Part shown: one piece after another, positions 29,358-33,660 of the stretch | Layout of the letters: the number at the start of each line of letters is the position of its first letter | Numbering within the stretch: the stretch's first letter is position 1 | DNA from: Hydrogenophilaceae bacterium | GTDB taxonomy: Bacteria; Pseudomonadota; Gammaproteobacteria; Burkholderiales; Thiobacillaceae | Direction of reading: 5' to 3' | Assembly: GCA_013389025.1 (NCBI GenBank) | Contig: JACAED010000017.1 | Span: forward strand, 1 to 62,256 | Length of the DNA: 62,256 nucleotides | Notes under the pieces: generated by a model | What the model was told of the DNA's origin: nothing | Database searches by the model: none | The model's input: only the letters and a program-made list of their open reading frames with translations | Made by a program: the position numbers and the translations under genes

Positions 29358-29783
29358 TTATTGCACAGTCAGCCGCTTGCTGGCGGAGACAGTCTTTTTC
29401 GGCAATACCAATTCCAGAACACCATCATTGTATTTGGCGCTGGCTGTCGCCTCGTCCACATCATTGGCAAGCGAGAAACTCCGCATTACCTTGCCATAGG
29501 TGCGCTCGCGCTTCAGCACTTTTTCGCCTTCCTTCTGCTCGGATTCGGAACGGGTTTCTGCAGAAACCGTCACGGTATTGCCGTCGATGGTGATATGAAT
29601 GTCCTCCTTTTTCACCCCGGGCAAATCGGCATGGACGGTATAAGCCTGATCATTTTCCTTTACGTCCATCTTGAACTGTGGCAATTCGCGATCCATTCGC
29701 ACGGGACGGAAAAATCCCCTGAACAGGTCGTCGAAGGGTTCGATGGCGGTTTCAAACGGGTCGTAGCGTGTCACATTGGGCAT
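29358..29783 (-). CDS. Small heat shock protein Hsp20/IbpA family
   Basis: This 141-aa alpha-crystallin-type chaperone binds unfolding proteins. The alpha-crystallin domain spans about 38-130 with the YTVHADLPGVKKEDIHITI entry and YNDGVLELVLPK near the end. The C-terminal I/L-x-I/L anchor is imperfect (RLTVQ). It is preceded by an AGGAGAG ribosome-binding site and a possible sigma-32 promoter, and is followed by its own terminator. Confidence 0.95.
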   Translation of the reverse strand: MPNVTRYDPFETAIEPFDDLFRGFFRPVRMDRELPQFKMDVKENDQAYTVHADLPGVKKEDIHITIDGNTVTVSAETRSESEQKEGEKVLKRERTYGKVMRSFSLANDVDEATASAKYNDGVLELVLPKKTVSASKRLTVQ

Positions 29784-29858: not shown

Positions 29859-29944
29859 AGATATCAGCATCTTTTTGAAGCGAATAATTGTCACTGTTAA
29901 ATTCCTTGAAACTGCCTACAATCTCCTTAAAAAAGGGAGGATGA

Positions 29945-30490
29945 ATGGGTGAATCCCAGAGTTGGCTTGAAGAGCATGGTGATTATCTTTTTCGCTATGC
30001 AAGACGGCGACTGATTTCCGACGAGCTGGCCGAAGACGCGGTTCAGGAAACCTTTCTGGCGGCCCTGAAGGCACGGGAGCGTTTTTCTGGAGCCAGCTCC
30101 GAGCGTACCTGGCTCACCGGCATACTCAAGCACAAGATCGTCGACATCATCCGCCACCAATATCGAGAGGTCACCGCACCGCAGGGCAGCGATCCTGATA
30201 ACGAGAATGACTGGGAAGCACTGTTTGACCAGAACGGCCACTGGGTCGAGACTTTCAGGGACTGGGGCGACCCGGCGTCCGAACTGGAACGAAGCCGCCT
30301 CCGTGAAGCACTGGATGAATGCTTCAGGCGGCTTAAGCCCAATCTGGCCCGGATATTTTCCTTAAGAGAGCTTTCCGGCCTGAGTAATGAGGAAATTTGT
30401 AAGGCGCTTGGTATCACTGCGACCAATGCCTGGGTCATGCTGCATCGCGCTCGATTGTTCCTGAGAGAATGCCTGGAAACGAGAATTTAG
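29945..30490 (+). CDS. ECF-type RNA polymerase sigma factor
   Basis: This 181-aa sigma-70 family protein has only regions 2 and 4. Region 2 is visible in HGDYLFRYARRRLISDELAE and DAVQETFLAAL (about 12-42), with the RTWLTGILKHKIVD promoter-melting part near 55-70. Region 4 ends in NEEICKALGITATNAWVMLHRARLFLREC (about 145-175), a helix-turn-helix. The start at 29945 follows GGGAGG. It is followed after 9 bp by a short zinc-binding anti-sigma-like gene and then the RiPP operon, so it probably senses a stress handled by that operon. In Caulobacter, related bufferin genes are under an ECF factor, which supports this by analogy. Confidence 0.92.
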   Translation: MGESQSWLEEHGDYLFRYARRRLISDELAEDAVQETFLAALKARERFSGASSERTWLTGILKHKIVDIIRHQYREVTAPQGSDPDNENDWEALFDQNGHWVETFRDWGDPASELERSRLREALDECFRRLKPNLARIFSLRELSGLSNEEICKALGITATNAWVMLHRARLFLRECLETRI

Positions 30491-30499
30491 GGAGCCGGT

Positions 30500-30745
30500 G
30501 TGGGGCTGATAAAAAACTGTAAGGAAACTTCGGTACTGGTGACTCAGTCACTGGATCACGGTCTGACGTTTCATGAACGTATTGCAATGAAATTGCACTT
30601 GATGATTTGCAGGAATTGCGCACGCTTCATGAAGCAGATGCATCTGCTTCGGTCTTGGCTGCGTATCGAAAATGAGGCAGAGCAGCCAGGGCTGACGGAT
30701 GAGGCCCGGCAACGCATCGCCGGAAAGTTGCGGGAAGAGGAGTAA
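30500..30745 (+). CDS. Putative zinc-finger anti-sigma factor (zf-HC2-like)
   Basis: This 81-aa cytoplasmic protein has the H-x3-C-x2-C motif of zinc-binding anti-sigma factors (LHLMICRNCARFMKQ, about 32-46) and a further Cys at residue 7. It has no membrane helix, so a direct cytoplasmic signal such as metal or thiol state may release the sigma factor. It starts at GTG 30500, 9 bp after the sigma gene, with a GGGAG site. Start and family are inferred from the motif and position. Confidence 0.75.
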   Translation: MGLIKNCKETSVLVTQSLDHGLTFHERIAMKLHLMICRNCARFMKQMHLLRSWLRIENEAEQPGLTDEARQRIAGKLREEE

Positions 30746-30763
30746 TCCTCTTTGGCATGTTTG

Positions 30764-30781
30764 GCCGCCAGGCGGCTTTTT
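30764..30781 (+). terminator. Terminator/attenuator between anti-sigma gene and bufA
   Basis: A short GC stem (GCCGC-CAG-GCGGC) is followed by TTTTT, 18 bp after the anti-sigma stop and 20 bp before the bufA start. A second small hairpin (GAGGA-GTAA-TCCTC) lies at 30737-30750 over the stop codon. It may reduce read-through, making bufA output depend on another promoter or on anti-termination. Confidence 0.6.
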
Positions 30782-30800
30782 CACTTAAAGGAGATGGAAG

Positions 30801-31184
30801 ATGGCAAGCAAGAAAAAAGCAGTAAGCGTAGCAGTGGGATCGGCATTCGTTGCTGGCATGGCCATGACGCCCATGGCCGGTGCGGCGGAAAACCCGTTTG
30901 CCATGCAAAGCCTGCAAAGCGGCTACATGGTGGCCGACATGCAGGGCAAGTGCGGCGCGGGAAAATGTGGGGCGAGCAAGTGCGGCATCGGTAAATGCGG
31001 CGCAGCGATGATGGACGAGAACAAGGATGGCAAGGTGAGCAAGGACGAATTCACCAAGCATCACGAAGCGATTTTTGCCGGCATGGACAAGAATAATGAT
31101 GGCATTCTGGATGCGGCTGAACTTGGCGGCAAAGCTGGAACTGGCAAATGCGGCGCCGGCAAGTGCGGTGGCATGAAGAAGTAA
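30801..31184 (+). CDS. Bufferin-like RiPP precursor with two EF-hands and six KCG motifs
   Basis: This 127-aa exported precursor has a signal peptide (about 1-28, cut after AGA), four cysteines at exact five-residue steps (51, 56, 61, 66; each in a KCG motif), two canonical EF-hand loops (72-83 DENKDGKVSKDE and 96-107 DKNNDGILDAAE) and a last pair of KCG cysteines (117, 122). The GKCG repeats resemble those of bufferin precursors, which DUF692/MNIO enzymes modify at cysteines to bind copper. A strong AAGGAG site precedes the ATG. The DUF692 gene follows 13 bp later. The two-EF-hand insertion between cysteine clusters suggests calcium or structural control. Modification is inferred, not seen. 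Confidence 0.85.
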   Translation: MASKKKAVSVAVGSAFVAGMAMTPMAGAAENPFAMQSLQSGYMVADMQGKCGAGKCGASKCGIGKCGAAMMDENKDGKVSKDEFTKHHEAIFAGMDKNNDGILDAAELGGKAGTGKCGAGKCGGMKK

Positions 31185-31197
31185 GTCACACCCCGTC

Positions 31198-32049
31198 ATG
31201 AAACGTTTGCCGCTTCATGGCGCGGGCCTCGGGTTTCGCAGGGAATCTCTGGACGAACTCGAAAGCCGGGTGCCCGATGTCATCGATTTCTTTGAAGTCG
31301 CGCCGGAAAACTGGATCGACATGGGCGGTATTCTCGGACGCCGTTTTCATGCCTTTGCCGAACGTTATCCGTTTGTGTGTCACGGCCTGTCGCTCTCATT
31401 GGGCGGGCCTTCCCCGCTTGATGAAATGCTGTTGCGCAAGATCAAGTCATTCATCGAGCAATATCGCGTTCCGCTCTACACGGAACATTTGTCGTACTGC
31501 TCGGATGACGGGCATCTTTATGACTTGCTGCCCATCCCGATGACGGAGGAAGCGGTCAAATACGTGGCTGCGCGCATCCGACAGACGCAGGATATTCTGG
31601 AGCGGCGCATCGCGGTCGAGAATGCCTCTTTCTATGTCAATGCGCCAATTTCAGACATGGACGAGCCCACGTTCGTTCGCGCGGTGCTGGAAGAAGCGGA
31701 TTGCGATCTGCACCTGGACGTGAACAATGTTTACGTCAACAGCGTCAATCACCGTTTCGATCCGCGCGCTTATATTGCCTCACTGCCTGCGGAACGGGTG
31801 GTTTACATGCACATGGCCGGACATTATTACGAAGCCGAGGATTTGATCATCGACACCCACGGCGCCGACGTGATCGACCCGGTGTGGGCGTTGCTGGATT
31901 TCACCTACCAGACGATCGGCGTGCGGCCGACTTTGCTGGAGCGGGACTTCAACATCCCGCCCTTGGCACATCTGGAAAAAGAAGTCGCGCAGATCGCTGT
32001 ATTGCAGCGCAAATACCAGTCAGCCCACCCCCATGCTGCCCATGCCTGA
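31198..32049 (+). CDS. DUF692 multinuclear iron oxidase (MNIO, BufB-like)
   Basis: This 283-aa TIM-barrel enzyme belongs to DUF692 (MNIO), iron enzymes such as MbnB and bufferin-modifying BufB that convert peptide cysteines to copper-binding heterocycles. Likely metal ligands are conserved: His62 (CHGLSLSLGG), Glu96-His97 (YTEHLSYCS), Glu141 (VENASFY), Asp174 and Asn176/177 (HLDVNNVYVN), His205 (YMHMAGHY), Asp219/His221 (DTHGADVIDPVW) and Glu248 (LLERDFNIP). It is full length. Its 3' end overlaps the DUF2063 gene by 17 bp. Substrate assignment to the upstream peptide comes from adjacency. Confidence 0.92.
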   Translation: MKRLPLHGAGLGFRRESLDELESRVPDVIDFFEVAPENWIDMGGILGRRFHAFAERYPFVCHGLSLSLGGPSPLDEMLLRKIKSFIEQYRVPLYTEHLSYCSDDGHLYDLLPIPMTEEAVKYVAARIRQTQDILERRIAVENASFYVNAPISDMDEPTFVRAVLEEADCDLHLDVNNVYVNSVNHRFDPRAYIASLPAERVVYMHMAGHYYEAEDLIIDTHGADVIDPVWALLDFTYQTIGVRPTLLERDFNIPPLAHLEKEVAQIAVLQRKYQSAHPHAAHA

Positions 32050-32794
32050 TCTGCCGGAATTCCAGCGCTACCAGTTCGCTTTCACGTCGCACATCCGCGA
32101 TCCGAGGCATTCCAGGCGTCCTGCAGGCGTCGAGGGGCGGCGCATGAGAATTTACAATGAGCTGCTGTACAACAATCTGGAAAGTTTTCTGCTCGCCTGT
32201 TTTCCTGTCATGCGCAAGGTATTGGGCGAGCGGCGATGGCGCCGGCTGGTGCGCGCATTCTTTTCGAGACATCGCTGCCACACGCCTTATTTCAGGCAGA
32301 TTCCCGATGAGTTCATGCAGTTTCTGCAAAATGACTGGGAAGGGGGTGAGGATTATCCCGGCTTTCTGATCGAACTTGCCCATTACGAATGGATCGAGCT
32401 GGTGCTGACGGTTTCCAACCGGGACGAGCAATTGGCAGAATATGACGCGAATGGAGATCTGATCGAAGGCCGGCCACTGCTGAACCCTGTCCTGGCGAAT
32501 CTGGCTTATCAATATCCGGTGCACCGAATCAGGCCGCGCGCTAAAGTCATCGCGACGCCTACGTTCTTGCTGGTATTCCGGGACGTTGAATTCAATATAC
32601 GTTTTATCGAGCAGAGCCATGTCGGCGCGCGCCTGCTCAATTTGCTTGAGCCAGGCAAGCTCACGGGCCGGGAAGGAGTAACCATGCTGGCGGGTGAAAT
32701 CGGGCACGGTAATCCATCCCAACTGATAGATTTCGCCAAGGGGTTTCTTGATGAATTACGGCATGCGGGCGCGGTACTGGGGACGGCACGTTGA
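32033..32794 (+). CDS. DUF2063 partner protein (BufC-like)
   Basis: This 253-aa protein has an N-terminal DUF2063 domain (about 8-100; FQRYQFAFTSHIRDP and RIYNELLYNNLESFLLACFPVM are typical). Despite the 'putative DNA-binding' label this family often carries, in MNIO clusters it is the partner protein that helps present the precursor to the DUF692 enzyme. The C-terminal half (about 130-250) is a poorly characterised second domain. It overlaps the DUF692 gene by 17 bp and is followed by a strong terminator, closing the operon. Confidence 0.88.
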   Translation: MLPMPDLPEFQRYQFAFTSHIRDPRHSRRPAGVEGRRMRIYNELLYNNLESFLLACFPVMRKVLGERRWRRLVRAFFSRHRCHTPYFRQIPDEFMQFLQNDWEGGEDYPGFLIELAHYEWIELVLTVSNRDEQLAEYDANGDLIEGRPLLNPVLANLAYQYPVHRIRPRAKVIATPTFLLVFRDVEFNIRFIEQSHVGARLLNLLEPGKLTGREGVTMLAGEIGHGNPSQLIDFAKGFLDELRHAGAVLGTAR

Positions 32795-32810
32795 CCTCAA
32801 CGAAGAATAC

Positions 32811-32838
32811 AAAAAAAGCGGGCAGCGCCCGCTTTTTT
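32811..32838. terminator. Strong bidirectional intrinsic terminator
   Basis: A 12-bp near-perfect stem (AAAAAAGCGGGC / GCCCGCTTTTTT) has a 3-nt AGC loop. It ends the bufferin-like operon on the plus strand and the cytochrome/PCuAC transcript on the minus strand. Confidence 0.9.
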
Positions 32839-33222: not shown

Positions 33223-33660
33223 TTATTTTCTTGTTGCAAGCGGGTCACGCACTTCCGCGCTGACTTCATGCAACGAGGTTTTCTTGTTGGACAGAATCTT
33301 GAGCGTCAAGGGCACCTTGTCACCTGCTTTCAGCGGTTTTTTCAGGTCGATCAGCATGAGGTGCAACCCACCCGGTGCCAACTTGACGGCCTGGCCCTTG
33401 GGTAACCTGATGTAGGGAACAGGACGCATTTTCATGACGCCGTCCTGCATGGACATTTCATGCAGCTCGGTAGTGCCTGCAAACGGTGTGCTGGCGGCTA
33501 CAAGGCTTGCATCATCGCCAGGGCTGGTAATTTGAAGAAATCCGCCGACGACGGCCTGTCCCGGGGCTGGTGCGCGTACCCAGGCATCTTCAATGACAAT
33601 GTCAGCTGCCAGGGCTGGCAGGGTCAACAGGAATGATGTGATCATGGCAAAGCGTTTCAT
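33223..33660 (-). CDS. PCu(A)C periplasmic copper chaperone
   Basis: This 145-aa secreted protein (signal peptide about 1-19) carries the exact PCu(A)C copper motif H-x10-M-x21-H-x-M: His67, Met78, His100 and Met102. Such chaperones bind Cu(I) in the periplasm and deliver it to the CuA or CuB site of cytochrome oxidase, or hold it for homeostasis. Its position next to the convergent bufferin-like operon supports a local copper theme. A cytochrome c gene follows on the same strand. Confidence 0.93.
   Translation of the reverse strand: MKRFAMITSFLLTLPALAADIVIEDAWVRAPAPGQAVVGGFLQITSPGDDASLVAASTPFAGTTELHEMSMQDGVMKMRPVPYIRLPKGQAVKLAPGGLHLMLIDLKKPLKAGDKVPLTLKILSNKKTSLHEVSAEVRDPLATRK

Follow-up and report, generated by a model that had tools for sequence, protein, structure and literature searches.

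A predicted oxazolin/captophorin-type operon with an EF-hand precursor, headed by an ECF sigma/anti-sigma pair, in a Thiobacillaceae bacterium

Five co-directional genes, which span positions 29945-32794 on the plus strand, lie within a 62,256-nucleotide stretch of DNA (contig JACAED010000017.1, assembly GCA_013389025.1; hereafter the window) from a sulfur bacterium of the Thiobacillaceae, the genome of which comprises 1.84 Mb and is 75% complete. According to their open reading frame (ORF) translations, the genes encode an extracytoplasmic function (ECF) sigma factor, an anti-sigma factor, the precursor of a ribosomally synthesized and post-translationally modified peptide (RiPP), an MNIO (DUF692) enzyme and a DUF2063 partner protein. 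Judged by the sequences of its products, the most likely product of the operon is a copper-binding peptide that is modified enzymatically and exported, with synthesis probably governed by a stress-sensing switch of the operon's own, and the nearest predicted class of the operon is that of the oxazolins/captophorins (EGKCG), with a precursor of EF-hand chimaera type. A first-pass annotation had listed five co-oriented genes with one terminator, an ECF sigma factor with a cytoplasmic zinc-type anti-sigma factor, a precursor with regularly spaced KCG motifs, a DUF692 enzyme with conserved metal residues and a DUF2063 partner, and this inventory was recovered in full, with all five ORFs at their place and strand. 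The features are:

29895-29923, plus strand: candidate operon promoter; its two blocks, TGTTAAATTCC and GCCTACAATC, are conserved in the closest relative
29945-30490, plus strand: ECF sigma factor, TIGR02943 family, 181 amino acids (profile search)
30500-30745, plus strand: cytoplasmic zinc-binding anti-sigma factor (ZAS), 81 amino acids, GTG start (profile search, ZAS residues, hydropathy)
30763-30777, plus strand: terminator-like hairpin followed by a T-run, in the gap between the anti-sigma and precursor genes (script, alignment)
30801-31184, plus strand: RiPP precursor, 127 amino acids, with a Sec-type signal region, four KCG motifs, an EF-hand pair and two further KCG motifs
30948-31001, plus strand: N-terminal KCG repeat block, residues 50-67, probable substrate cysteines
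31014-31049, plus strand: EF-hand loop 1, DENKDGKVSKDE, residues 72-83 (profile match and motif)
31086-31121, plus strand: EF-hand loop 2, DKNNDGILDAAE, residues 96-107 (profile match and motif)
31146-31169, plus strand: C-terminal KCG pair, residues 116-123
31198-32049, plus strand: MNIO (DUF692) enzyme, HvfB family, 283 amino acids (profiles, nearest structure 3bww, tree)
32033-32794, plus strand: PME1 partner, HvfC family, with DUF2063 and an NGO1945 C-terminal domain (RiPP recognition element), 253 amino acids (profiles)
32812-32838, no single strand: bidirectional intrinsic terminator, shared by the operon and a convergent cytochrome c gene

The anti-sigma gene starts 9 nt past the end of the sigma gene, and the first ATG of the partner gene is located inside the 3' end of the MNIO gene, giving an overlap of 17 nt. 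The terminator comprises 12 pairs, with a T-run on either strand, hence transcription of the convergent cytochrome c gene could end there as well. All five proteins exceeded at least one curated family cut-off each, and dN/dS was 0.07-0.12 for each of the five genes in comparison with the closest relative, Thiobacillus sp. QR_Bin.5 (locus L046), which also has the closest MNIO enzyme (92% identity).

The sigma factor exceeded the cut-offs of Sigma70_r2 and Sigma70_r4_2 and scored 184.8 bits with TIGR02943 (cut-off 162.2), so that ECF regions 2 and 4 are both present, and the gene directly 3' encodes the anti-sigma factor, which exceeded the cut-offs of zf-HC2 and NF052368. The latter carries C7-x25-H33-x3-C37-x2-C40, in agreement with the class motif C-x23-26-H-x3-C-x2-C without a membrane helix, and these residues were invariant in 47 of 47 sequences (the window and 46 relatives). 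As its hydropathy maximum (19-residue mean) is 0.46, no membrane helix is expected. The same ZAS motif has been described for MseR of Neisseria meningitidis and HrsE of Haemophilus influenzae (PMC2893595, PMC7907618).

The first-pass annotation had labeled the system as bufferin-like and had proposed a phylogeny of the enzyme against BufB, and it is this label that has to be given up. The MNIO protein exceeded the cut-off of PF05114 and that of the HvfB model NF003818 (425.1 bits, cut-off 360), and failed the BufB model NF050167 (270.5, cut-off 310), whereas three BufB controls (L157, L158 and the second MNIO of L082) behaved in the opposite manner, with 391-396 bits for BufB and 233-283 for HvfB. 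Seven further relatives, including those of Bacteroidales (L117) and Acinetobacter (L114), passed HvfB and failed BufB. On the MNIO tree, which is a quick tree with many weak forks, a branch with an SH-aLRT support of 100 parts five BufB-type rows, three of them confirmed by cut-off, from 81 HvfB-type rows, with which the window enzyme groups. The partner exceeded the cut-offs of PF09836, PF22106 and NF050145 (265.8 versus 142). By profile and tree, the enzyme and its partner are thus assigned to HvfB and HvfC of the oxazolin/captophorin type, rather than to the bufferin maturases. The nearest solved structure is 3bww from Haemophilus somni, which is 72.4% identical to HvfB and holds diiron in sites 1 and 2 (PMC13419390). 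Eleven residues of the window enzyme, namely H62, H97, E141, D174, N176, N177, H205, D219, H221, E248 and D250, were invariant in the 85-86 rows that cover them, the five BufB-type rows included, and represent candidate iron ligands; H209 was kept in 84 of 86 rows. In a comparison by eye, N176/N177, D219 and H221 appear to correspond to N175, D242 and H244, which are essential in HvfB (PMC13419390).

The precursor harbors KCG at residues 50, 55, 60, 65, 116 and 121, and three or more KCG were obtained in 4 of 20,000 shuffles of the protein. Its Sec-type signal region, with an N-terminal hydrophobic stretch, extends over approximately residues 1-28 as judged by eye, both EF loops are canonical, and the cut-offs of EF-hand_1, EF-hand_5, EF-hand_6 and NF050137 (30.8 versus 19.5) were exceeded. 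A DUF2282 match was absent at E-values up to 1, and no relative was found when viral contigs were searched with the precursor. EF-less relatives with more EGKCG repeats share the N-terminal part of the precursor, a signal region followed by AAENPF...GYMVAD. In a survey of 80 named loci and the window, where a precursor was defined as a nearby upstream ORF with at least two K/RCG, EF-hands were present in 23 precursors and absent from 49, while nine loci had no precursor by this rule. Among the related sequences of the 80 named loci, KCG/RCG units were less numerous in precursors with EF-hands (median 3, n=22) than in those without (median 5, n=49). The EF-hand state changes at least six times on the MNIO tree (72 labeled rows), with the KCG repeats being retained, and the state of the sigma pair likewise at least six times (75 labeled rows; six loci with short upstream sequence left out). 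Among the 68 rows with both labels, 13 had both, 33 only the sigma pair, 8 only the EF-hands and 14 neither; the two are not tied to each other and have been gained or lost independently.

A survey of sigma/anti-sigma genes beside MNIO loci, which the first-pass annotation had suggested, placed the pair next to the MNIO gene in 46 of the 80 named loci, with 28 lacking it and 6 not judgeable. It lies upstream of the MNIO gene in 45 of these loci and downstream in one (Acinetobacter, L114), and the same gene order is seen in distant lineages. Where argB is found within 3.5 kb of the MNIO gene (50 loci), 37 loci have the pair and 13 do not, which indicates that it comes or goes in a fixed slot. 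Two culturable relatives, Thiobacillus thioparus DSM 505 (L112) and T. denitrificans RG (L066), carry the pair at the corresponding position, and their precursors lack EF-hands. Across 117 genomes of the family, the comparison took in 79 over-cut-off TIGR02943 sigma places and 101 of 103 MNIO places, and 51 of the 79 sigma places were located within 3 kb of an MNIO gene. Counted per genome, 66 have sigma factor and MNIO, 6 only the sigma factor, 14 only the MNIO and 31 neither, a co-occurrence with a Fisher p of 7e-12 when kinship is ignored.

Each piece of this system has a known counterpart. In N. meningitidis, the operon NMB2140-NMB2145 is controlled by sigmaE and MseR (PMC2893595, PMC3240639), and as in the window an ECF sigma gene adjoins a ZAS anti-sigma gene in one operon with homologs of the precursor, MNIO and partner, recognized as such in the Haemophilus and gonococcal papers. 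The meningococcal operon, however, begins with doxX and ends with sigma/mseR, whereas the window operon starts with the pair and has no doxX, the DoxX match of its genome being on another contig; furthermore, the window precursor has EF-hands, which go unmentioned in the accessible part of the meningococcal description (PMC2893595). In H. influenzae, homologs of HvfA/B/C (COG3767, COG3220, DUF2063) and doxX depend on RpoE2 (PMC7907618), with the same sigma/ZAS type and HvfB enzyme family as here (PMC7907618, PMC13419390), but the sigma pair is located by msrAB, outside the hvf operon, and not inside it. EF-hand chimaera precursors were described in 2025 (PMC12452194), and the Buf_EGKC|EF-hand_5 type shares with the window precursor an N-terminal hydrophobic helix, a short Cys-repeat domain, two EF-hands and an MNIO neighbor, while the window adds two KCG after the EF-hands and the sigma/ZAS head; the accessible part of that description links sigma genes to Buf1 clusters and not to this class (PMC12452194). 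Bufferin 1 of Caulobacter is a further sigma-linked MNIO RiPP, there connected with copper stress, but it differs from the window in its DUF2282 precursor, BufB enzyme and NrsF anti-sigma factor (PMC12452194). The captophorin group has been defined to take in these products, including the gonococcal gonophorin (PMC13097082). Among titles and abstract openings of the open-licence literature on sigma factors with MNIO or DUF692, no account was found of an EF-hand captophorin operon headed by a sigma/ZAS pair. With every piece known, the variation lies in the arrangement, which has been little described and is found repeatedly among related bacteria, and what is added here is the combination and its spread, the independent gain and loss of sigma pair and EF-hands, the hairpin and the sigmaE-type promoter of Bacteroidota/Chlorobiota-type loci.

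That promoter emerged from a scan of both strands of the 80 loci and the window (1.65 Mb) with the consensus of Neisseria sigmaE, GTMAGBWTT-N12/13-CGTCTAAH (PMC2893595), which is a property of the Neisseria branch and not of every such pair. The exact form GTAAG-N3-T-N12-CGWCTA occurred six times, in each case 30-51 nt before the precursor ORF and in Bacteroidota/Chlorobiota-type loci (L117:4330, L120:2801, L121:742, L122:4294, L123:4369 and L125:173). A Neisseria-type promoter thus precedes the precursor in 6 of the 7 loci of this type that hold the region, which L118 lacks; the sequence of L125 is too short to judge the sigma pair. Near misses were seen in L119 and in the Acinetobacter locus L114, and those in L108 and L110 were dropped because of their positions inside the sigma gene. 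The locus L121 is labeled Candidatus Saccharibacteria but sits beside the Bacteroidetes locus L120 on a tiny branch of the MNIO tree, hence its label is doubtful, the contig is probably mislabeled or a contaminant, and the two loci are not independent.

Between the regulators and the precursor, the hairpin at 30763-30777 reads GGCCGC-CAG-GCGGCT and is followed by TTTT. In the closest relative both bases of the sixth pair differ (GC instead of CG), a compensatory change, and in L047 and L108 a five-pair stem is kept with other loops (both by eye). A script that permits unpaired bases before the T-run found a hairpin and T-run in this gap, at less than -5 kcal/mol, in 23 of 47 sigma loci; 21 of the 47 were aligned. 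Such a hairpin may reduce read-through or mark an mRNA end.

Taken together, we favor a self-contained stress operon of the oxazolin/captophorin kind, switched by the sigma/ZAS pair and producing an exported, thiooxazole-modified copper peptide with accessory EF-hands, a reading to which we assign a probability of roughly 0.68. In an unstressed cell, as relatives suggest, the zinc-loaded anti-sigma factor would hold the sigma factor; disruption of the Cys-His-Cys-Cys zinc site, by an oxidant or by a thiol-reactive metal (Cu(I), for instance), would release the sigma factor to transcribe the RiPP genes. The first-pass annotation had inferred a metal-stress module with the anti-sigma factor as possible sensor, but the reported inducers of Haemophilus RpoE2/HrsE are the oxidants HOCl and H2O2 (PMC7907618). 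The partner would then bind the precursor leader, the diiron MNIO would convert KCG cysteines into 5-thiooxazoles, and the product would be exported via Sec to bind copper in the periplasm. Since relatives have more repeats in its place, the EF-hand pair would be an accessory calcium-binding scaffold between two modified-repeat blocks, outside the chemistry, and the hairpin probably separates regulator expression from peptide-gene expression.

A number of results weigh against this reading, and they concern mainly the switch. The earlier proposal that the sigma factor controls the operon holds in so far as homologous genes are sigma-controlled in N. meningitidis (PMC2893595) and H. influenzae (PMC7907618), so that regulation of such genes by such sigma factors is established in other lineages, but the Neisseria sigmaE promoter had no match in the window (best 12 of 17 positions), hence sigma control would apply here by analogy. 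A relaxed form (GTMAG, N11-13, CGHCTA) added one match, the sole one in a beta locus, before the sigma gene of L097 (L097:3605), which is no more than suggestive, as chance alone would yield approximately two such matches in the set as a whole; the sigma gene of L097 is distributed over two reading frames. When 24 chosen loci were searched de novo for two-block motifs, the output was coding conservation or an hsp20 element and no ECF promoter for beta loci. In 23 Thiobacillus-type loci the element before the sigma gene is of the form TTG-N20-TAAAGT (TAAAGT or TACAGT), with sigma-70 spacing, and the sigma-less L070 carries a similar element of housekeeping geometry. MNIO and partner stand without the pair in 28 loci with enough flank (in 6 of them no precursor was found), so that the pair is not required. 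In meningococci, the oxidants tried left sigmaE expression unchanged (PMC2893595). With respect to the precursor, the full-length HvfA model NF050188 was missed (18.5 versus 95) and the units (QGKCG, AGKCG, ASKCG, IGKCG, TGKCG and AGKCG) are GKCG/SKCG instead of the literal EGKCG, so that the precursor is filed as EF-hand chimaera type and not as HvfA proper; its AlphaFold model, from an alignment of 21 rows, is poor (mean pLDDT 50.6).

In a rival reading, the sigma pair is only a neighbor, serving a regulon that is broader or of another kind (oxidative protein repair, for example), and transcription of the RiPP genes starts mainly from a housekeeping promoter or one of their own. The sigma-70-like geometry of the conserved Thiobacillus element and the hairpin that parts the anti-sigma gene from the precursor gene both speak for it, as do the 13 of 50 argB slots with an MNIO and no pair, and the 28 of 79 sigma places that are not within 3 kb of an MNIO gene. 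However, the gene order is the same in distant lineages, a Neisseria-type promoter stands ahead of the precursor in Bacteroidota-type loci, and the homologous genes of Neisseria and Haemophilus are sigma-dependent, which is why we regard such a separate regulon as unlikely. The EF-hand pair could instead be the working metal site, for calcium storage or signaling or for another hard metal, with the KCG cysteines serving only anchoring or redox functions, as might be argued from the canonical sequence of both loops and the purifying selection on their gene, from a weak match to the lanmodulin model and from the calcium roles also raised by Antoine et al. Yet the EF-hand state changes at least six times on the MNIO tree while KCG repeats and MNIO are retained throughout, and the lanmodulin score (28.5 bits) is far below the cut-off of 135, which makes this quite improbable. 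More improbable still is a genuine bufferin system (Buf1/Buf2) with control of the Caulobacter sigmaF kind: the MNIO-PME1 superfamily is common to both and sigma genes, together with NrsF, are reported for Buf1 clusters (PMC12452194), but the window enzyme stays below the BufB cut-off that all three controls exceeded, BufB-type rows form a separate branch, the precursor has no DUF2282 match, and the anti-sigma factor is a ZAS without an expected membrane helix or an NrsF match. Going beyond the favored stress operon, it is conceivable, though doubtful, that the sigma/ZAS/captophorin block has moved or persisted across Pseudomonadota and Bacteroidota with its promoter code kept in some lineages, and that here it makes a dual-metal peptide, in which EF-hand calcium positions the thiooxazole blocks and thereby makes copper binding calcium-dependent, with the zinc anti-sigma factor losing its zinc as a direct response to copper.

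Captophorins are described as among the most populous RiPP classes (PMC13097082), and their triggers are known in few species, hence the recurrent sigma/ZAS pair at the head of such operons offers a concrete handle on the signal, and the promoter motif common to Neisseria and Bacteroidota-type loci offers another. Behind a common leader, EF-hands have repeatedly given way to additional Cys repeats, a hint as to which portion of its substrate the enzyme requires; why calcium and copper sites should be joined in one peptide is a question that this raises.

Upstream of the operon, the two blocks of the candidate promoter are unchanged in the closest relative (G008), while the spacer is changed. 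Among nine genomes of the genus, no copy with up to three mismatches was found beyond the window and this relative, and a regulon is therefore not proposed. Conservation upstream was highest for TTTCAAG, with GATCTGGGG located farther 5', and this motif of many Thiobacillaceae loci resembled an operon promoter; as judged by eye, however, it reads on the other strand as a sigma-32-like promoter of the divergent hsp20 gene and was therefore not used.

Some sigma pairs that are unlinked to an MNIO gene adjoin DoxX genes or other KCG precursors (L159, L162). In genome G009 (reported as 99% complete; L037, L159), a KCG precursor and, approximately 17 kb away, a sigma/anti-sigma pair with DoxX are found and PF05114 has no match, leaving a precursor without its enzyme. 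L161:3978-4798 holds a sigma/anti-sigma pair with an HSP20-like neighbor upstream (by eye) and neither precursor nor MNIO beside it, possibly an operon remnant, and in L158:6766-8531 two tandem pairs are separated by a few kb from a BufB-type MNIO; the same locus also appears to contain a fusion of DoxX and sigma, which was set aside because it looks like two reading frames run together. In the window, the hsp20 gene (29358-29783) is divergent from the operon, and a gene for a PCu(A)C copper chaperone (33223-33660), unlisted in the first-pass annotation like the hairpin, follows downstream on the opposite strand, an arrangement in which the PCu(A)C gene is convergent and downstream in 31 of the 80 named loci, and the order argB-hsp20-operon-PCu(A)C is a recurrent synteny of the window and its relatives.

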